Origin: Pusillimonas sp. T7-7
Lineage (GTDB): Bacteria > Pseudomonadota > Gammaproteobacteria > Burkholderiales > Burkholderiaceae_B
Direction of reading: 5' to 3'
Length of the DNA stretch: 41,205 bases
NCBI RefSeq assembly: GCF_000209655.1
Contig: NC_015459.1
Coordinates: forward strand, 1 to 41,205
The position numbers and the translations under genes were made by a program. The notes under the pieces were generated by a model. It made no database searches and had not been told where the DNA came from. It saw only the letters and a list, made by a program, of their open reading frames with translations. The stretch's first letter is position 1, and the number at the start of each line of letters is the position of its first letter. Positions 2,712-27,420 of this stretch are shown in pieces.

Positions 2712-2975
2712 ATGACCACTGACACAGTGCTGACGGACGAGCGGATCACAGAGTTCCACTACTACGACTATCCAACTGAGGCGAAGTACGTCCGAGCCAT
2801 CGAGCAAGCCGTCCTGCAATCCATAGCGAACGATCCGAACAGAATTAACGCAGCAGCCAAGGCCCTATCGAGACACATGGACTACCCCTGGGAATTCATG
2901 ACCGTCGAGGGCCGAGACAATATGCGCAAGGCAGCAATGATCACGATCAACGCCGCAATGGAGAAGCAGACATGA
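2712..2975 (+). CDS. Hypothetical early protein
   Basis: 87 residues, soluble and mostly helical in appearance, with no recognised motif. It follows the zinc-finger gene by 15 bases with a purine-rich AAGGGGCC stretch upstream, and its stop overlaps the next gene by four bases (ATGA), so it belongs to the pL operon. Unknown function. Confidence 0.7.
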   Translation: MTTDTVLTDERITEFHYYDYPTEAKYVRAIEQAVLQSIANDPNRINAAAKALSRHMDYPWEFMTVEGRDNMRKAAMITINAAMEKQT

Positions 2976-3316
2976 GCGACATCGGCTACTGGGAAGAATG
3001 TATCAGCATCGCCGCCGAAGAATGCGACCTCAGCCTGACCCCTGAACAGCTTGAGGCTCTTGCTGACGGCGCGAGTAGCGGCCACGAGCACTACGGAATG
3101 GCCTTCTACTCGCCGCCAGACTCCGACCGCTACGACGCCATTGAGCAGGAATGGAAGGCGAAATACAACGCCTTGAAGCGTGAGTTCGAGGCCTACCAAG
3201 GCAACGCCGAAACCGCCGTCAAGCAGGCGCTTCGCCAGTACAGCGACGCCAATGTAAGCATAGGCGAACACGGCGAAGTCCTACGTCATGACGGCAGAAC
3301 TGAGCGGATTCAATAA
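2972..3316 (+). CDS. Hypothetical early protein
   Basis: 114 residues, acidic, predicted helical with no membrane segment. Starts inside the stop of the preceding gene (ATGA). The N-terminal half (IAAEECDLSLTPEQLEALAD) looks like a small helical domain seen in many uncharacterised phage early proteins. It is the last gene before the 735-base non-coding block. Function unknown. Confidence 0.7.
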   Translation: MSDIGYWEECISIAAEECDLSLTPEQLEALADGASSGHEHYGMAFYSPPDSDRYDAIEQEWKAKYNALKREFEAYQGNAETAVKQALRQYSDANVSIGEHGEVLRHDGRTERIQ

Positions 3317-4045
3317 CCCTCCCCGGCCCGGCCAGCCAAACCCCTAGGCCACCCCTGCCCGCGTCGGTTGCGTGGCAGGGCCATCAAGAGTAGAGATTGT
3401 TTGCCAGAACGGAATGGTAGGGGATAGCCCGACGAGGAACAGCCTAGGTAAGTAATCGCGGGGTGCGCGTACCCCAACAGGCAACGCACCTGTATACGTG
3501 GTTCGAATCCACAGCAGTCTCTACTCTTGATGGCAGCACACCTCCCCGGACGGTATTCCGGTCGTACCTGGGTCCGCAGTGATGCGGGTAAGTGGTTAAC
3601 GGAAAAGCCGCCATCAGGCCAGCGTATCGCTGGTGCTCTGCCCGCCACTCCGGGCCGCCCCTGAATACGGAGCTTCGAGCAGCATCAGGGGATCTGTCAG
3701 CCGCGCCGTTATCGCGGTCCTGTCGCCGATTACGACGAATGACGCCGGATGGAGTAACCGGCATCCGCCCACCCTCATGTCTTTTGCCTTGGCAGGCTTC
3801 GCATGATGGGAGGGCACCCTCACATATCAACCGTCAAACAGGCATTAGCACCCTGCCAAAAGTCATCTATTTAAGCGTGGTTGAGCTGGATAACCGATGC
3901 TTCATTCGGGATGACGGTTGATATGCGAGGGTTTCACGAAAAGCCGACGCATGGGCCAACCCTTCGCCAAAGGCCACGGCGCAGGGCAAACCTAAACGTG
4001 GATGGCTGCCCACTGATTCCCTCTCTCAATTCCTAATTCTAGGAG
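3317..4045 (+). ncRNA. Large structured non-coding RNA candidate
   Basis: No convincing gene on either strand for about 735 bases inside the pL operon, but very strong pairing. A 20-bp helix (3380-3399 with 3515-3534, one G-U) closes a tRNA-like domain. A 21-nt helix with one mismatch (3816-3836 with 3912-3932) encloses a 75-base loop. TTGGCAGG (3789-3796) can pair with CCTGCCAA (3852-3859) inside that loop, a pseudoknot topology. Local hairpins: CCCTGCC/GGCAGGG (3353-3380), CCGCA-GTGA-TGCGG (3574-3587), CCAGCG-TAT-CGCTGG (3619-3633), CCCCTGA/TCAGGGG (3658-3691), GCCGG/CCGGC (3744-3762). CAGCCA (3333-3338) may close it against TGGCTG (4003-4008). Size, ornate fold, embedded tRNA-like part and phage location recall GOLLD and ROOL RNAs; membership cannot be claimed without a covariance search. 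Confidence 0.65.
3380..3534 (+). ncRNA. tRNA-like domain within the large RNA
   Basis: Acceptor-like stem 3394-3400/3514-3520 abuts a T arm (3497-3501/3509-3513, four of five pairs) with canonical T loop TTCGAAT (3502-3508). T3401 sits at the U8 position. GCC/GGT (3403-3405 with 3416-3418) can form a D stem whose loop has A14-like, purine 15 and GG (3411-3412) at the G18G19 position. The anticodon arm is missing: about 77 bases instead hold GGGGTG/TACCCC (3460-3475) and a 5-bp, 7-base-loop hairpin (3477-3493). The acceptor stem continues outward for 13 more pairs and no CCA follows. It is not an ordinary tRNA. Confidence 0.55.
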
Positions 4046-4051
4046 CAAATC

Positions 4052-4345
4052 ATGCTTGAACTTGAAGACGCCCCACTCACGGGCGGGGCCGGCTTTATGC
4101 CGCTGCCAAAAGTCACTGTTGATGACGTTGACAGTGTCCTGCGCCTGGCAATACGAGCCGACGAGCGCGGCAACGATATCGAAATGTGGGCCGAAAAGCT
4201 CGATGAAGCTGATCTGTTTGCCTGCCTGGACTCGCAGATGAAGGCCGCTGTCTTGTACGCAGTCATGACGACAAACAGCGCCTACATGAGCCGGGTGCAG
4301 GAGTATGTGCGGTTCAAGATTGGCGAAGAGCTGGAGGGATCATGA
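4052..4345 (+). CDS. Hypothetical early protein
   Basis: 97 residues, soluble, with no recognised domain. It starts after the structured RNA block with ribosome binding site AGGAG (4041-4045), and its stop overlaps the next start (ATGA at 4342). Position ahead of the recombination genes suggests an early accessory role; function unknown. Confidence 0.7.
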   Translation: MLELEDAPLTGGAGFMPLPKVTVDDVDSVLRLAIRADERGNDIEMWAEKLDEADLFACLDSQMKAAVLYAVMTTNSAYMSRVQEYVRFKIGEELEGS

Positions 4346-4492: not shown

Positions 4493-5569
4493 ATGTCTGA
4501 AGTCATTGAAAAAGAAGATACCGAACTGGTCCTGCTGCCGCCTGCTGAAACTGCTCTTGAAGTCTATCAGCAGCAAGCAGGCCTTGACCCATACATCGAG
4601 CGCATCCGTGCTGAGGTCACCGGCCATAAGCAAGACCTGACCACCGACAAGGGCCGCAAAGCTATTGCAAGCCTGGCCTTCAAGGTGCGCAAGTCGAAAA
4701 CGGCACTGGACAACTTAGGCAAGCAGCTGGTTGACGATCTGAAGGAAATCCCCAAGAAGATCGACGCTGAGCGTAAGCGCATGCGTGACCAGCTTGATGC
4801 CCTGGCTGGCGAAGTGCGCAAGCCGCTAGACGAATGGGAGGCGGCAGAGGGAGCACGAGTCGCAGAGCACAGGGCCAATCTCGAATGCCTAAAAGCTGCG
4901 CCTACAGATGGCATGACGGCAGAAAACATTGAAATGCTCATTACCTGCCTGCAGAGCAACGTAATCGACGCATCCTGGGAAGAGTTCGAGACCGAGGCCC
5001 ATCGTGTAATGGCGGCCAGCCTGACCGCTTATAAAGCGGCGCTAGAACGCCAGCAGAAATACGAAGCCGACCAGGCCGAGCTTGCCCGCCTGAAAGTTGA
5101 GGCCGAAGCCCGAGCCAAAAAGGACGAGCAAGACCGCATCGCCCGCGAGGCTGCCGAAGCCGCCACCAAGGCAGCCGAGGCTAAAGCGCAGGCCGAGCGT
5201 GACGCAGCAGCCAAGCGTGAGGCCGATGCAAAGGCAGCCCAAGCCAAAGCCGAGCAGGGCGCCAAAGACGCCGCCGAGCGTCAGCGCCGCGCCGAAGAGC
5301 AAGCCGAAACCGAGCGTCTGGCATCTGCGGAGCGGGCCAAGCAGGCAGCGGAAAACGCACGGCTGGCAGAGGTCAAGCGCCAGGCCGACGAAGCAGCCCG
5401 CATTGAGGCGGAAACCAGGGCCCGCGAGAAAGACCGGGCGCACAAGGCCAAGATCATGGGCGCCGCCAAGGTGGCAATCATGCAATCCGGAATCACCGAG
5501 GATCAGGCGCGGGAAGTGGTCAAGCTGATCGCCGCCGGCAAGGTACCCAACGTTCAAATCAACTATTGA
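4493..5569 (+). CDS. Coiled-coil protein of the recombination module
   Basis: 358 residues. The N-terminal half (about 1-190) is a helical domain with a conserved look (DPYIERIRAEV, KGRKAIASLAFKVRKSKTALD), matching phage proteins of the DUF1351-like type that sit beside recombinases. From about residue 190 to 320 runs an almost uninterrupted Ala/Glu/Lys/Arg coiled coil. The short C-terminal domain ends KVPNVQINY. The ATG at 4493 is chosen, not the upstream one at 4451, because AAGGA precedes it and the N-terminus MSEVIE is shared with the next gene. Probably assists the ERF annealase; the exact role is not known. Confidence 0.7.
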   Translation: MSEVIEKEDTELVLLPPAETALEVYQQQAGLDPYIERIRAEVTGHKQDLTTDKGRKAIASLAFKVRKSKTALDNLGKQLVDDLKEIPKKIDAERKRMRDQLDALAGEVRKPLDEWEAAEGARVAEHRANLECLKAAPTDGMTAENIEMLITCLQSNVIDASWEEFETEAHRVMAASLTAYKAALERQQKYEADQAELARLKVEAEARAKKDEQDRIAREAAEAATKAAEAKAQAERDAAAKREADAKAAQAKAEQGAKDAAERQRRAEEQAETERLASAERAKQAAENARLAEVKRQADEAARIEAETRAREKDRAHKAKIMGAAKVAIMQSGITEDQAREVVKLIAAGKVPNVQINY

Positions 5570-6323: not shown

Positions 6324-6958
6324 TGGACGGCCTGATAATTCACACCGACCCTCAAGGGTCTGACGCTTGGCTGGAGGCTCGTCGCGGCGTGATAACAGGA
6401 AGTCGTTTTCGAGACTGCCGCGACAAGCTCAAGAGCGGCGCCCTTTCAAAGAAGTGCACCGACTATGCGAAGGATGTGGCTCGTGAGCGCGAGGGCGGTG
6501 AGCCAATGGCTGTTTTCGTGAGTGGCGCTATGCGGCTTGGCTCAGAGCAAGAGGAAAAGGCCAGGGACGTTTACCAACTAAAGACAAAGAACTTTGTTGA
6601 GGAGGCCGGGTTTATCACCACGCAAGACCGGCTTTTTGGGGTCAGCGTAGACGGCCTAGTGGGCGACGATGGCATTATCGAAATCAAGACGATGGTCAGC
6701 AGCGACACGCTTTTTACAGCGTTCGTAGATGGCGACATTTCCAGCTATATCGACCAGTGCAACGGCGCAATGTGGCTGCTTGGCCGAAAGTGGATTGATC
6801 TGGTTTTGTGGGTTCACGACCTGGGCCGCATGAAGATCATCCGCATTGATCGTGATGACGACGCAATCGAAGCGCTGGAAGCGGATTTGATGGAGTTCGA
6901 GCGCTCAGTCACTAAATATCAACAGGCATTAAGCCTAGCACTAAAGGAAGCAGCGTAA
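6323..6958 (+). CDS. YqaJ-type phage exonuclease
   Basis: 211 residues of the YqaJ/lambda exonuclease family, PD-(D/E)XK fold. It resects double-stranded ends 5'-to-3' so the ERF partner can anneal the exposed strands. Visible motifs: SDAWLEARRGVITGSRF (the substrate-entry helix of this family), GSEQEEKARDVY, then the nuclease core GVSVDGLVGDDGIIEIKT with Asp and E-x-K at about residues 100-117. ATG at 6323 overlaps the stop of erf and has AAGGAGG upstream; an earlier in-frame ATG at 6164 lies inside erf and is not used. Confidence 0.88.
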   Translation: MDGLIIHTDPQGSDAWLEARRGVITGSRFRDCRDKLKSGALSKKCTDYAKDVAREREGGEPMAVFVSGAMRLGSEQEEKARDVYQLKTKNFVEEAGFITTQDRLFGVSVDGLVGDDGIIEIKTMVSSDTLFTAFVDGDISSYIDQCNGAMWLLGRKWIDLVLWVHDLGRMKIIRIDRDDDAIEALEADLMEFERSVTKYQQALSLALKEAA

Positions 6959-11338: not shown

Positions 11339-12322
11339 ATGGCATCGTTCAGGAAAAGCGGCAAGGGATGGCGCGCTGAAGTCGCACGCAATAGCGTCAG
11401 AGAGAGCGCCACCTTCCCCACCAAGCGCGAAGCTCAAGAATGGGCGGCCAAGCGGGAAACCGAGCTATCAGCCCGGAAAGGCGGCAAAGTAATCCGCTGG
11501 TCGCTGAGCGACGTGCTCGACAAGTACCTGAGAGAGATTACGCCGACCAAGCGCGGCGCAACCAAAGAGGCTATACGCATCAAAGCCTTTCAGCGTGACG
11601 AGCTGGCGCAGAAGGTTATGCAGGACGTGACGCCTGCCGACCTGGCCGACTGGCGAGACAAGCGCGTAAAAAGCGTAAAGCCTGCATCCGCTCTGCGTGA
11701 AATCTCTACGCTTCGTGCCGTCTGGGCCCAGGCTCGGAAAGGCGAATGGAACTATACGGACCAAGACCCTTGGAAGGAAGTCACCAAGCCGGAACCCGGC
11801 AAGGCCCGGACCACCACCTTCACCGACGACCAAGTCAAGCGCATTGTTGCTGCATTAGGTTATGACGGTGGCCAACCCAGCACCAAGCGCAAGGAAGCTG
11901 CCGTTGCTTTATTGTTCTCGCTCGAGACGGCCATGCGTGCTGGTGAAATCGTGGGCCTGCAATGGGAGCATGTGCACCTGGACAAGCGATTGGTGCACCT
12001 ACCAGAGAGCAAGAATGAAGATGCGCGAGACGTGCCGTTGTCGAAGAAGGCGGTTGCCCTGCTGGAATGCATGAAGGGGCTAAATGACGAGCGCGTGTTT
12101 ACCCTCAATTCAGCCCTTCTGGATACGTATTACCGATCAGGACGCGCCCTGGCTGGCATTAAAGGCCCTACCTTTCACGACGCCCGGGCCACGGCTATTA
12201 CCCTGCTATCAAAGAAACTGGATATTTTGGAGCTGGCCAGGATGGTCGGCCACCGCGATCCGCGCAGTCTTATGATCTATTATCGAGCATCCGCCACGGA
12301 CATTGCTGCAAAGCTAGACTGA
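11339..12322 (+). CDS. int: Tyrosine-family integrase
   Basis: 327 residues. The N-terminal arm-binding domain (about 1-50, FRKSGKGWRAEVARNSVRES) and core-binding helical domain (55-150) precede the catalytic domain. Catalytic residues visible: Arg200 (TAMRAGEIVGLQW), Lys225, His280 and Arg283 (FHDARATAI), His305 (MVGHRDP) and Tyr314 or Tyr315 (LMIYYR), the nucleophile. It inserts the phage into the host chromosome and, with excisionase, removes it. No ribosome binding site is visible before the ATG, where a TACGCAA repeat sits instead, hinting at autoregulation or leaderless translation. Followed by a terminator. Confidence 0.93.
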   Translation: MASFRKSGKGWRAEVARNSVRESATFPTKREAQEWAAKRETELSARKGGKVIRWSLSDVLDKYLREITPTKRGATKEAIRIKAFQRDELAQKVMQDVTPADLADWRDKRVKSVKPASALREISTLRAVWAQARKGEWNYTDQDPWKEVTKPEPGKARTTTFTDDQVKRIVAALGYDGGQPSTKRKEAAVALLFSLETAMRAGEIVGLQWEHVHLDKRLVHLPESKNEDARDVPLSKKAVALLECMKGLNDERVFTLNSALLDTYYRSGRALAGIKGPTFHDARATAITLLSKKLDILELARMVGHRDPRSLMIYYRASATDIAAKLD

Positions 12323-13970: not shown

Positions 13971-14639
13971 ATGGCTGATCAAATTTTAACAGCCCATCAA
14001 GAAAAGATTTGCGGCATATATTTGCTGGTTCATCGGGCTACTGGACGATCTTATGTAGGACAAAGTTCAGACATAAAAACAAGATGGAAGTCTCACAGAA
14101 CCAGGAAACACAGCACCCACATATCATTGGCCATTCAAAAATATGGGTGGGACGCATTCGACGCTCGTGTGCTTGAAATTTGCGCCAGAGAGCTCTTGAA
14201 CGAACGGGAATCCTTTTGGGTTGATGCTATCGACTGCATATCTCCAAAAGGCTTCAATCTCCGTACTGGCGGGCAACAAGCGTTTCTGATTAGCGAAGAA
14301 ACCAGACTAAAGCTATCCAAAGCGCTAAAAGGGATTCCAAAATCTAAAGATCATGCGGCGAATGTCGGGCTGGCGTTAAAAGGGAAAAAGCAGCGCCCCG
14401 AAGTCGTATCTGCTAGAGCGGAGAGGCAGCTCGGCCGAAAACGGCCGGAGGCTGCAATTAAGCAGCAGGCAGAGAAAATCAGAGGAATTCCGCGCCCAGC
14501 AGATGTTGTCGCTAAAATTTCAAGAGGGCTGACAGGGAAAAGGCTGTCGGACGAAACAATCAAAAGAAGGACAACATCAAGATATATGAATAAAAAAGAT
14601 ATTCCCGGGCAGATGAATTTATTTAATAGCGCATGCTGA
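13971..14639 (+). CDS. GIY-YIG homing endonuclease
   Basis: 222 residues. The N-terminal GIY-YIG nuclease (about 14-100) shows CGIYLLVHRATGRSYVGQSSDIKTRWKSH with GIY 15-17, YVG 28-30 and the catalytic arginine at 39. The remainder contains NUMOD3-type DNA-binding repeats (SEETRLKLSKALKGIPKSKDHAANVGLALKGKK and similar). It should make a site-specific break to copy itself into related phages. It is transcribed opposite to the late operon that surrounds it and separates a holin N-terminal fragment from the complete holin. GGAGGA precedes the start. Confidence 0.88.
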   Translation: MADQILTAHQEKICGIYLLVHRATGRSYVGQSSDIKTRWKSHRTRKHSTHISLAIQKYGWDAFDARVLEICARELLNERESFWVDAIDCISPKGFNLRTGGQQAFLISEETRLKLSKALKGIPKSKDHAANVGLALKGKKQRPEVVSARAERQLGRKRPEAAIKQQAEKIRGIPRPADVVAKISRGLTGKRLSDETIKRRTTSRYMNKKDIPGQMNLFNSAC

Positions 14640-16753: not shown

Positions 16754-19700
16754 TTAATACCCCTGGCTGATCCAGTTAATTTGTCGTTGCACGGCAGTCG
16801 AGCTGTTGTACATGCGTATGTCGAAGCCGGTCTCATCGGAATCCGTCAGAACATACCTGTCCCCATTCACGGCATCGAAGGTGGCAATCTGCACATTTGG
16901 CGTGGCGTGAAATTGCTTCGGATAGGTAATGCGAAGGCCAGCATCTGGAATCGTGATCTGCTCGTCCCGCTGGACCATGTCAGGCACATCAATCGTCCAT
17001 GTAAAGGCGGTCACGAACGGAACGATCATCGCGTCGTCAGTTTCCAGCACGAGACGCACATCGAAGTACCGGGCATTGATGAGGCCTGGTACGTAGTCAC
17101 GCCACTCGCTCCATATGCCATCGTCGCCGGCGTGGCGAATCTGCGGCTGTACTTTGTAGTGCTGACGATTCGATTCATTCAGGATGTCAGCTACTTCAAA
17201 TACATCAGGCAGCGCAAGTACGTTTTCGTGGAAGTTAAAGGCGAATTCGTCTATCTCAAAGTCAACACGAACCGGGGTCGGAAAGCCTATGTCTATGATG
17301 TTCGAATCATTCGTCTCATACGTTCCATACATTTCCGCCCCGCCATACCACAGCACATCATCCAGGCTTAATACATCTTCCGCCTCTAGAATGTCACCTG
17401 CGCCAGCAAGCGTAAGCTGCGAGTCATGGATAAACGCCCCACCACCCACTTCGCCGGTCCAGTCTGGATGCTCATCAGTGACAGCCAAGACATTACGAAC
17501 AAGCACAGCCCCCGATATCTGCAGGCTGTCTGGCGGGCCATAGATAACCGAGCCGCGATACGCGAACCGTGCGGCCACCCAATAAAGCCCGTTTTCAATC
17601 GCCAGCGCCTCAAGAGAAGGCACGATGGCCACCGTTTTCGAATTAACCCATGACGGCCCTACGCGCATTTCATATTCAGGATTGCGTATATCAACAACGC
17701 GATCCCACACTAGCGTCGTCAGCCCGTCCCGGAAAACGTTTGTCAGACCTGTCACGGCAGGCAGCGGTATGGTCAGGCCTTGCACTATGTATTGTTGTGA
17801 CCTTGGCGTACCTCGCCCGGACGTCGATACAGGGGTGACGGTCACATCAATGACATCGCCAGTCTGCGCCTGGGTCGTGATCTGGCGCTCCTGTGTGCGC
17901 GTGACGGGCTGAGCTACCCCGTTGACTGAAACAACAACGTCCACTGGCATTGCGACCGACAGCGCCCACCCAATCAGCACGCTGGTTATATCGGCCTGGA
18001 CGTTGATGATGGTTTCGTTAAAGCTGATGGAAAACACAACGCCAGCAAGCAAAGCGCCGTCACGCGGCGGCGTGTACTGGTACGGATTGTTTTCGCTGGC
18101 GTAATAGCCCGGATCGTCGTCAATAGCCTGGAACTTGACACCGTCTTCACTGGGCTGCACGCTTGTGATTTTGAAGCGTCGCCCCGGCGTGGCGAGCGGA
18201 TCGAAAAACCAAGCCCAATCAACGTTTGCGCAATCCTCGTAACCAGCATCTCCGGGCAGCGGGAAACCTGTCATGTCCGAAGTGATGGTGAGCGCATCCA
18301 CATCACCTACGCTGCTTGTCACTGACACCACCTTCATCTGGTTCTCAGGCCCGCGTATCATCATCGTGCCTGAACCATCCGAGGGAATGGCCTTGTCCAG
18401 CGTAATGACGTTGCCATCTCTGGCCAGCACGCGGCCCGAATATCCCCACACAGTCAAATCATGGCTTATCTGCACCACGTCACCACGGCCCGCTACCCAG
18501 CCCTCGATATCGGTTTCCCATGACACGCGGCGGCGGTGCCAGATTTGGGAGGCAGCAAGTAGGTTAGCCTCCCTACCCGCCATGCTCGGGTTGGTGCACC
18601 CATCGAAATCCAACTGAAGCGGATTGTTGGTAGTCGTGGCGCCAGGAACCCGTACCCGAACCTCATCCATCGACCAGTTGCGCGCCGGATTGGTGAAGTT
18701 CAAAACAATTTCGTCAGCCGTATCGTCGTTTATATAATCAACCTTGAACGACCCAGCCCTCATATTGAACGGGCCGAACATTGCCACCGCAGGAAGGTTG
18801 GCGGCATCCCACACAACACCCAGCTTCCCGGTCTGCCACGTAGGAGACGCGCGCCCGGCCCGTGCAATCATCTGCAGTACCTGAGCGGTGGACATTTTGC
18901 GATCCAGCACGTAATTGAAGGTCAGCCCCTTCTGATCGCACCACAGGCCCCAAGCCTTAATTGCATCCAGATCAAGCTGTGCATCTGTGAGGCCACCACC
19001 GAAAAGCCTGTCACCATTGACTTGGCTGTTCTGCCCAATGGCGAACCAACGAAACCACCACGCAGGATTGCTGGTGTGCGCCCATACCCAAGACGACCCA
19101 TTCCAGGCATGGCAGAACGCCTCAACGATGCAGTTGAACTCGTCGACCGCACCATTGAGCTGGCTCGTTGCCTTGATCCGCAACGCCAGGCGAAGCTGTC
19201 CACGATAATCGGCTATGTCAGGCTGATAGCATAGGATTTGACCGACAGCGGTTTCATTCGATTCTCGACTGCTCTTAATGTCGCCGTTGACCTTCCATAT
19301 CTGTACCTCGTACTGGCCTTTGGCGACCCCCCAAGTAACCGTTCTACGAGTAGGCTCTTGCCTTGCTCCGTATATGCGCACGCCCGGTGTGGCCGCCGAA
19401 ATAAGCGGGTCTGGCGCGTACCCAGCCCACGGCTGACCCAAGCTATGCGGGTGCGGCGCCCATCGCCATATGCCGAAAACAAGATTGCCTCGGCCATCTG
19501 AAATAATCTTTGTTTCGCCATCCGTATGCTCTGCCGAATTTGTTGAGCCATACTCTAGTTGCTCATCCCCGGATATGGGCCCAAAGATACTTTTTCGCAA
19601 TGACCAGTAGTGTGTCGCGTAAACAGCGCCGATTGCGCCAATTTCTGTCCACCCCCCGCCCGCAACATTGCGATACCGAATACGCACATCGACCGTTCTG

Positions 19701-25814: not shown

Positions 25815-26159
25815 TTATTCAGCAGGAATCTGCACTTCAATTATTCGACGGTGAAGCTTTAAGTCGGCGTCGTAGTCCGTCATATCGTTAAGGCGAATCG
25901 CAAGCGGGAACGCCGCATCAACTGCGTCAAATACCAGCCGCCGAAGAGCGACAAGCGCCCCGTAGTTAGGCCCGAATACATCAATCTGCACTCGATAGTC
26001 GTCCAGATCGGATGCGCCGCACACCGTGTTATCTGGCGTCACGGCGATAACTGACAGGCGAATGGCGGGCATCGTGACATTCAGCGGCAGGATGGCCAGG
26101 TGCACACGGTTGCCCACCAACGGGTTAAGGGCGGCTATCAGATCGCTTTCTAAGCTCAT
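25815..26159 (-). CDS. DUF3168 tail completion protein
   Basis: 114 residues with the DUF3168 pattern: SLESDLIAALNPLVGNRVHLAILPLN...PAIRLSVIAVTPDNTVCGASDLDDYRVQIDVFGPNYGALVALRRLVFDAVDAAF. These proteins join the tail tube end to the head-tail connector (lambda gpU-like role). The neighbouring gene upstream is now an HNH endonuclease that overlaps its start by four bases; in relatives the gp10-like gene is the direct neighbour. Confidence 0.8.
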   Translation of the reverse strand: MSLESDLIAALNPLVGNRVHLAILPLNVTMPAIRLSVIAVTPDNTVCGASDLDDYRVQIDVFGPNYGALVALRRLVFDAVDAAFPLAIRLNDMTDYDADLKLHRRIIEVQIPAE

Positions 26160-26899
26160 AGTAAATACTCAATGGAGGAGCCCTTGATCAAGTTATCGCG
26201 CGCCCACATAGGCCTCAAGTTCGTGTGATGACATAGCTTTAACAGTTCCGCCTCGTCCTTGGCTGATGCCAGGGGAACAATGTGGTCAATATGCCACTGG
26301 CCCCTGTTGGCCCAGCTCATTCCTTTGGAAAATTGCTTTTCCAAGTGCCTCTTTAATTCCTGCCAGTCGCAGCCCACCATATCTGTAGTGCGCGATTTCT
26401 TTGTGTAGCCGTTTTTCCGAATGGCAATGTTGATGCGCCCGCGTATGTCGTTACGCAACCTAGTCATCAAGTCGTATCTTTGCCGATCACACTGCTTGCG
26501 CGACAGTTCCTTCGCATTTTTCTTTTTGTATGCTCGGCTCGCTTCAGTGAGCCTCTCGATATTCGCGACGCGATATTCGCGATACCAAGCCTTTGCCCTT
26601 TCTTTATTGTTCTCGTAGTATTCTTTCTCTCTTGCCCTGTATTGGTCTATTTTCTTTCCCCGCGCGACACGTTTTGCCTCCGAAGCCTTCTCCGGGTTAG
26701 CCTCGCGGTACGCCTTCACTGTCGCAAGTCTCTTTTCCCGATTGCGCAGGTATTCTTCTCTTTTGGAAATCTTTTTGCATGGGATGCACCGCGAATCGTG
26801 CCCATCCTTGCCGCTCGCCTTCTTGTTGAATTCCGAATACGGCTTCCATGTGCCACACCCCGCACATTCGCGGCCAGCAGGTACAATTACTTCAGCCAT
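26156..26899 (-). CDS. HNH homing endonuclease with zinc ribbon
   Basis: 247 residues. N-terminal zinc ribbon with CAGCGTWKPYSEF and RCIPCKK, a long basic helical region (residues 35-160), and a C-terminal HNH nuclease (RGQWHIDHIVPLASAKDEAELLKLCHHTNLRPMWARDN). AAGGAG seven bases upstream fixes the start at 26899; the longer frame to 26986 is not used. It is inserted between the DUF3168 and gp10-like genes, with a promoter-like element and hairpin upstream of its start, consistent with a free-standing mobile endonuclease. Confidence 0.87.
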   Translation of the reverse strand: MAEVIVPAGRECAGCGTWKPYSEFNKKASGKDGHDSRCIPCKKISKREEYLRNREKRLATVKAYREANPEKASEAKRVARGKKIDQYRAREKEYYENNKERAKAWYREYRVANIERLTEASRAYKKKNAKELSRKQCDRQRYDLMTRLRNDIRGRINIAIRKNGYTKKSRTTDMVGCDWQELKRHLEKQFSKGMSWANRGQWHIDHIVPLASAKDEAELLKLCHHTNLRPMWARDNLIKGSSIEYLL

Positions 26900-26932
26900 A
26901 ATCAACTCCTTTGTCAGTTGGTTTTGGTTAGG

Positions 26933-26974
26933 GCCGCAAGCGTGTTGGTAGCACCTTGCGGCTCGTCTATTATA
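26933..26974 (-). promoter_or_regulatory. Promoter-like element and hairpin upstream of HNH gene
   Basis: On the - strand a consensus -10 TATAAT (26974-26969) runs into AATAGACGAGCC and the hairpin GCCGCAAG/CTTGCGGC (26962-26955 with 26940-26933), placed before the ribosome binding site of the HNH gene. No good -35 is visible. The 12-base stretch is shared with the GIY-YIG leader at 13895-13906. Confidence 0.5.
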
Positions 26975-26982
26975 CTTTGCAT

Positions 26983-27420
26983 TCACTTGTTTCTGACCGT
27001 TGCGCTACCTATTTTCTGGGCTTCTGCTTCCAGTCTTTTTGCAAGCTGTTCTTTAATCTTCCCCGCCGCCTCTTGCTTTTTAGTTTCAAATGCGGGGCGT
27101 AGGAATGGCCTTGGGGCCATATGAGCCGTGCCGAACTCCAAGAATCGAAAATAGTAGGCAGAATCGTCCTTCTTACCCTTCACCCGCACGCCAACTACCG
27201 TCTCCTGCAAGCCCGGCTGATTGGGCTTCAGGTTCGCCGTGCGGATATTCTTCTTTAGGTTTCCGGTATCGACCGGGACGAGCTTCTTCGCCTCATTGGC
27301 AATCACGCGGGCGCCGGCAGCCGTAGCAGATCGAGCAATGCGCTTTTGTACGCGGCTATCCAACTCTTTCATGGCCGCCCCGAGCTCGCGCAGGCCCGTC
27401 ATTTGCATGCTGGTTTTCAT
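26983..27420 (-). CDS. HK97 gp10-like tail-head joining protein
   Basis: 145 residues. Typical HK97-gp10 family features: GLRELGAAMKELDSRVQKRIARSATAAGARVIANEAKKLVPVDTGNLKKNI (the VPVDTGNLKKN motif) and FLEFGTAHMAPRPFLRPAFE. It acts in head-tail joining. Start at 27420 overlaps the upstream stop (ATGA), so the longer frame to 27444 is rejected. Confidence 0.88.
   Translation of the reverse strand: MKTSMQMTGLRELGAAMKELDSRVQKRIARSATAAGARVIANEAKKLVPVDTGNLKKNIRTANLKPNQPGLQETVVGVRVKGKKDDSAYYFRFLEFGTAHMAPRPFLRPAFETKKQEAAGKIKEQLAKRLEAEAQKIGSATVRNK

Follow-up and report, generated by a model that had tools for sequence, protein, structure and literature searches.

A putative modular RNA element, apparently undescribed, with a predicted tRNA-like domain in a phage early operon of Pusillimonas sp. 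T7-7

The genome of Pusillimonas sp. T7-7 comprises two contigs, a 3.88 Mb chromosome and a contig of 41,205 bases (contig C2), and the whole of the latter, designated the window, was analysed here. The co-directed frames 2972-3316 and 4052-4345 flank a stretch of 735 nt at 3317-4051 (downstream: phrog_1376 protein, Erf recombinase). A first-pass annotation had proposed that this stretch contains no credible gene. Eleven stop-to-stop frames of at least 40 aa within it were compared with related loci by tblastn, and no conserved frame was found at E <= 0.05. The comparison yielded only pieces of 20-42 aa, the best with an E value of 5e-8 over 24 aa, and several of them fell in opposite frames of one and the same DNA; in contrast, the upstream gene matched 32 loci. 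Since the tblastn pieces were all short, a hidden gene in the stretch was rejected, in agreement with the proposal. Codon usage was an unreliable means of finding such gaps. DNA searches returned no match for the stretch among phages and none for 3380-3534 among plasmids. Elsewhere in the window, the ORFs at 13971-14639 (plus strand) and 26156-26986 (minus strand) resemble, by eye, GIY-YIG and HNH homing endonucleases.

The 735 nt folded with a z of -7.0 on the plus strand and -4.0 on the minus strand (20 shuffles each), and the plus strand was the more stable in 17 of 27 units, with a mean difference of -1.07 kcal/mol, a result that leaves the strand undecided by energy. The stretch appears to consist of a sequence box at the 5' end, a small hairpin and long paired stalks that each hold a folded RNA, referred to here as cargo; all of these features lie on the plus strand. 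The box, CCCGGCCYGGCCAGCCAWAMCC (3322-3343), follows closely on the stop codon of the gene upstream and is kept in relatives. The hairpin P0 (3353-3380; 3353-3359 paired with 3374-3380) has the inner loop GTCGGTT at 3363-3369, and at its position relatives carry, by eye, a hairpin of other sequence, such as CCAGCGC..GCGCTGG in L278 and L295. The first-pass annotation had described one RNA element of 735 bases; it looks less like a single fold and more like a chain of modules, and in a same-genus relative, L291, the box, small hairpin and stalk are contained within 163 nt.

The first stalk, P1, pairs 3380-3401 with 3513-3534. The annotated helix (3380-3399/3515-3534) was recovered and reaches 22 bp, including two U-G pairs; over its core the pair probability was 1.00 when all 735 nt were folded together. 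Its score of 20 lies beyond all 60 dinucleotide shuffles of a 700-nt stretch, which scored 9.1 +/- 1.0 with a maximum of 12 (row L290). Free folding of the 735 nt placed three arms inside the helix with probabilities of 0.85-0.97. These were a D-arm-like hairpin, GCCA-GAACGGAA-TGGT, with GG in its loop (3403-3418; 0.96-0.97 in the unconstrained fold), an anticodon-type arm, ACAGG-CAACGCA-CCTGT (3477-3493; 0.85-0.92), and a T-arm, GTGG-TTCGAAT-CCAC (3498-3512; 0.95-0.96), stacked on the stalk. The predicted fold contains the arms of a cloverleaf, including a T-arm stacked on the acceptor, for which 3395-3401 is the equivalent part of the 5' strand. An insertion of about 57 nt (3420-3475) separates the D-arm from the anticodon-type arm and contains helices 3420-3423/3472-3475 and 3429-3435/3456-3462 and a UGCG at 3464-3467. 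This UGCG is complementary to CGCA (3485-3488) in the anticodon-type loop, forming a possible pseudoknot. tRNAs have U33, and the window loop, CAACGCA, has A there; it is not a free 7-nt anticodon loop with U33. Because the insertion can pair with this loop, normal decoding is not expected of the domain.

In the predicted fold, helix 1 serves as a lengthened acceptor stem that encloses a tRNA-like domain, and the first cargo of the window would be a tRNA mimic made up of an acceptor (the inner stalk), a D-arm, an anticodon-type arm, a short variable loop and a T-arm. Like a canonical tRNA (RF00005), the domain has an acceptor, a D-arm with GG, a 7-nt anticodon-type loop, a short variable loop and the T-loop TTCGAAT, all in the same order. 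Unlike a canonical tRNA, it carries an insertion that can pair with the loop, has a 22-bp acceptor and lacks an encoded CCA end. ARAGORN at default settings called no tRNA or tmRNA in the window, and the Rfam tRNA model RF00005 gave no gathering-score match there. With its intron option, ARAGORN called a tRNA at window 3393-3522 and did not call the homologous domain of L022, a phage locus. A tmRNA was rejected, as the window had neither a tmRNA model match nor an ARAGORN tmRNA call; L022 scored 12.4 bits with beta_tmRNA (gathering score 84), over its T-arm. The annotated view of a structured RNA is supported in this form, with a link to tRNA and with pair-keeping changes in relatives.

L022 (5369-5496) is the one homologue on which the tRNA reading of the window draws. 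Its layout is the same as that of the window domain; the acceptor has 7 bp and the D-arm looks standard by eye. Both sequences carry the insertion and the motifs GGATAG, TAAGTAA and GTGCGC. Pair changes were counted over a 23-pair structure drawn by hand on the window and L022, and so chosen from the same two sequences that were tested. Six pairs differed in both partners, no pair in only one of them, and two were broken in the window. Five of the two-sided changes and the two broken pairs fall in the insertion helices, and one two-sided change falls in the anticodon-type arm. The four UGCG/CGCA pseudoknot pairs are neutral as evidence because they are invariant between the two sequences. These values were reached in 11 of 500 shuffles, and shifting the partners by 1-3 columns lowered window/L022 pairing from 95.7% to 35-48%. 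A model, R1, built from the two domains found no third member above noise in 100 loci, recovering only its two source sequences. Across 300 genomes of the order it gave 38 matches, one of them the window's own. Of the best 11 of the 37 others, ten overlapped tRNA-Cys genes and L314 was without an ARAGORN call. Because the R1 matches overlap tRNA-Cys genes, the 3' half of the domain appears tRNA-like by a second route.

The second stalk, P2, pairs 3816-3836 with 3912-3932 through 20 Watson-Crick pairs and one A-C mismatch at 3822/3926, as had been annotated. A single-base mismatch a few pairs from the stalk base occurred in 5 of 8 folded units. The P2 cargo (3839-3909) includes hairpins at 3839-3855 and 3894-3909, which resemble hairpins in L258 (8169-8275), whose different stalk starts with CCATCA. 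The P2 domain and its L258 counterpart folded at z of -6.6 and -5.6, and for P2 the minus strand was more stable than the plus strand; the alignment of the P2 domain (A2) was too divergent to support a claim of covariation. A pseudoknot between 3789-3796 and 3852-3859 had also been annotated. The two segments are exact 8-bp complements, but the pseudoknot is unconfirmed because the L258 homologue pairs the matching strand locally. The 3' module (3942-4043), before the next gene, has a counterpart of about 80% identity at a single place of the host chromosome (G000:C1:1483811-1483908). That copy lies near a tRNA-Met and a weak call for tRNA-Lys (42 bits), and perhaps belongs to a decayed prophage.

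The 5' box, at up to 2 mismatches, occurred at 30 places in 26 of 268 family genomes, of which 9 were judged real and 21 chance. These labels rested on noncoding context and earlier similarity matches and were set after the helices had already been seen. The 21 chance matches were compared with 12 loci judged real; for three loci, L020, L049 and L003, up to 4 mismatches in the box were allowed, and L278 and L295 are alike. A strong helix, taken as the best Watson-Crick helix of the following 700 nt if at most 4 of 60 shuffles reached it, followed the box in 10 of the 12 loci (the exceptions being L296 and L003) versus 3 of the 21 chance matches. In 7 of the 12, the strongest helix starts with CC[A/T]TCA and ends with TGA[T/G]GG, while the rest of the helix and the interiors differ. 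L291 was labelled real partly because its hairpin and stalk had already been seen; leaving it out gives 9 of 11 loci with a strong helix and 6 of 11 with these ends.

A T-arm stacked on a stalk with 10 or more net pairs was found in 9 of 121 other loci, always on the operon strand, in 0 of 139 control loci and not at all in 3 shuffles. This cut-off was set after a looser scan, which matched both strands, and among the nine matches L020 and L021 are one unit and L086 and L101 are related. Eleven stalk units were folded, and all of them had z from -2.9 to -7.8. The pattern search of genome contigs returned at least 120 stretches, mostly chance. The helix filter also gave reverse-strand copies of true units and a set of extras (L023, L024, L032, L100, L154, L187 and L198) that were dropped by eye as chance or coding; L127, matched by an earlier pattern, was dropped because it resembles coding sequence. 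Similar cargo was seen in different stalks in three pairs, window/L022, window/L258 and Orimi01/L259. In the last of these, a cargo of about 220 nt is common to L259 (9287-9539), a prophage region in the window's family, and L303 (1385-1614), the Pseudomonas syringae phage Orimi01, and the closing stems are different.

Several further features were observed at these loci. Stalk units with different cargos stand two or three in tandem at L259 9093-9876, L258 8169-8417 and L046 4079-4597, with the recurring ends GGCGGCGTGGAAAG..ACACGC and GCCGG-GTAGCG-CCGGC. In L020, a near-canonical tRNA (6571-6640, plus strand; Rfam tRNA, 42 bits) follows directly after a stalk unit. The 5' strand of its acceptor, GATGGTG, shares bases with the TGATGG end of the stalk, and the two would compete for them. 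L020 also carries a Burkholderiales-2 RNA (RF02917, 84.9 bits) at 4579-4653 on the minus strand, and L258 a tmRNA gene (18603-18969, minus strand, 214.9 bits) about 10 kb from its stalk units.

Comparable stalks were examined in 13 Pseudomonas-type loci (9 of 42 BLAST matches together with L086, L101, L119 and L130), without a shuffle control. In 11 of them the best helix has G[C/T]ATCGG near its 5' end; in L101 it lies within that stalk, and in Cruim01 it is something else. An A-C mismatch at the same stalk place (GGAG opposite CCCC) was seen by eye in L297, L298, L300, L304, L130 and L088. Stalk units are present in named phages, either unannotated or partly under hypothetical proteins. The gaps that hold the unit in phi1, phi2, phiPSA1, PseuP_224 and Medea1 are unannotated and measure about 220 to 920 nt. 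In zjk6 the annotated start of a hypothetical protein, at 1314, falls inside the unit (1268-1416). In Orimi01, which was found through similarity to the stalk unit itself, a second unit (1385-1614) lies under a hypothetical protein annotated at 1383-1856. The homologous L259 does not preserve the reading frame of this protein, and its matches there, of 14 and 24 residues, are in different frames.

A scan for one stalk sequence gave at least 120 stretches, and the 80 that were loaded carry 73 distinct cargos. The 61 of these 80 in which the box was found with full flank entered a cluster comparison; their stalk is constant by construction, because the scan demanded its sequence. They hold 55 distinct cargos in up to 17 clusters, an upper count because L355, L366 and L372 share first bases. 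Over 1,576 between-cluster pairs, median identity was 0.57 for cargo, 0.56 for shuffled cargo and 0.76 for the upstream 80 nt, and in the 27 between-cluster pairs with flanks at least 0.90 identical, cargos were still only 0.58 identical. A consensus tRNA-type T-arm was present in only 12 of the 61 cargos. Within two sets of close relatives, two-sided changes occurred in 5 of 42 and 3 of 40 predicted pairs, with covariation terms of 0.02 and -0.63, so covariation in these sequence sets appears weak.

The element was compared with known RNA families. Rfam 15 gave no gathering-score match in the window, and at E up to 10 only chance-level minus-strand matches were returned, to Tombus_IRE and GlsR6 in 3200-4150 and to P13 in 3381-3533. 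No Rfam family matched the stalk units tested, the tRNA match of L020 being the domain after the stalk, and nothing was found in 20 Pseudomonas-type loci. GOLLD and ROOL are described as large noncoding phage RNAs of unknown function with tRNA association (PMC12286853), and the window element is likewise a large noncoding phage RNA with a tRNA association. It differs from them in being modular rather than one conserved fold and in having no model match. The covariance models gave none at E up to 10 in 3200-4150 or 3381-3533, and no gathering-score match in the window or in sets of 14, 12 and 20 related loci, and the membership in these families that the annotation had considered was not supported. 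The Proteo-phage-1 RNA (RF03044) adjoins a stalk unit in L088 (3507-3587, plus strand, just upstream of 3654-3773), but it is a separate family of 82 positions without a match in the window. The C4 antisense RNA of phages P1 and P7 is cut from an early transcript by RNase P and is in this respect a similar phage RNA; Rfam, which presumably includes a model for it, gave no C4 match in the window. RNase III cleaves the flanking stems of pre-rRNA, and T7 early mRNA likewise has RNase III stems. In these, as in the stalks, a long helix joins the flanks of a folded RNA; the window-type cargo differs in being a small RNA that varies between phages. A limited search of the open-access literature found no description of such stalks. 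The first-pass annotation had left the choice between a divergent GOLLD or ROOL member and a new class; the former was unsupported by the model search, and the element, with no Rfam match, is modular and apparently undescribed.

The computation gives helices, predicted tRNA-like arms, base pairing preserved where relatives have changed, and a conserved stalk that holds different cargos. Judged from its sequence, the window element is a real, modular phage RNA element that is apparently undescribed, and what would be new is its organisation, in which a phage early operon keeps a stalk while the folded RNAs inside it differ. The best explanation, to which we give a little less than an even chance, is that the early left operon includes here an untranslated RNA segment composed of exchangeable modules, whose stalks are cut out by RNase III and whose released cargo RNAs act in trans. 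The long stalks of the early mRNA would serve as substrates, probably of RNase III, much as the flanking stems of pre-rRNA do, and cutting would release the cargo. Once freed, the cargo RNAs may act as decoys. With its anticodon-type loop paired to the insertion, a tRNA mimic could bind tRNA-recognising proteins while neither decoding nor being cut there. The turnover of cargo beside stable flanks would fit decoys or inhibitors directed against a varying host factor, for example tRNA-binding or tRNA-cutting defence proteins.

Other explanations account for part of these observations. T7 early mRNA has processing hairpins between early genes, and the stalks may be only such hairpins for mRNA processing or stability, with the cargo a freely drifting filler and the tRNA likeness a relic of a phage tRNA gene. 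We consider this somewhat unlikely. Units do lie between co-directed genes in Medea1, phi2, phi1, phiPSA1 and PseuP_224, L049 and L017 have intact tRNA genes in the corresponding region, the cargo can vary freely in sequence and the T-arm is mostly absent; however, the cargo itself is folded in all 11 units examined, at the z values given above, two-sided changes keep its pairing, and similar cargo recurs in different stalks. Control of the operon in cis is quite improbable. It would involve an antitermination segment or a switch in which TGATGG pairs exclusively with either of two CCATCA strands, and the window does have a third strand: TGATGGCAGC (3528-3537) could leave P1 and pair with GCCGCCATCA (3607-3616). 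Six of 15 Alcaligenaceae-type units reached p <= 0.05 for such an arrangement, but for the window alone p was 0.10 and only 1 of 12 Pseudomonas-type units reached p <= 0.05, and a general three-strand switch was rejected on these values. Moreover, a simple scan of 2900-4200 found promoter-like (n = 1) and terminator-like (n = 3) sites only on the minus strand and near shuffle level.

An element acting as DNA, either an attachment site derived from the 3' end of a host tRNA or a recombination palindrome, would explain a T-arm with palindromic arms and modules that look recombined. It is nevertheless very improbable, as the only other host place of the 20-nt T-arm pattern has 3 mismatches and lies outside all 47 host tRNA matches, an integrase-like ORF (by eye) is at 11339-12322, and 9 of 9 strict T-arm matches are on the operon strand. 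The size and phage location of the element are those expected of a divergent GOLLD or ROOL RNA, but with no covariance-model match and with modules exchanged one by one, this origin is scarcely credible.

The supposed release of cargo RNAs from RNase III-cut stalks can be extended to a broader proposal. Temperate phages of at least Pseudomonas and Alcaligenaceae might keep sites for RNA cassettes in their early operons, in which a stalk excised from the mRNA holds structured RNAs that are replaced rapidly, some of them tRNA mimics with the anticodon arm masked or missing. Together these would give the phages an encoded set of RNA decoys directed at tRNA-targeting defences or at other host factors that bind RNA. 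Phage tRNAs are reported to be able to save phages from defences that cut tRNAs (PMC11555353). We regard this proposal as unlikely in its full form, and slightly more so than we did at first, because T-arms are present in so few of the Pseudomonas-type cargos.

If transcribed and excised, the element would represent an undescribed class of phage RNA. The element type seems common, given the number of stretches with one stalk sequence and the near absence of repeated cargo among those loaded, and it occurs in phages that already have names. That the stalk is kept while its cargo differs suggests an RNA-based arms race, which would be testable in laboratory phages.
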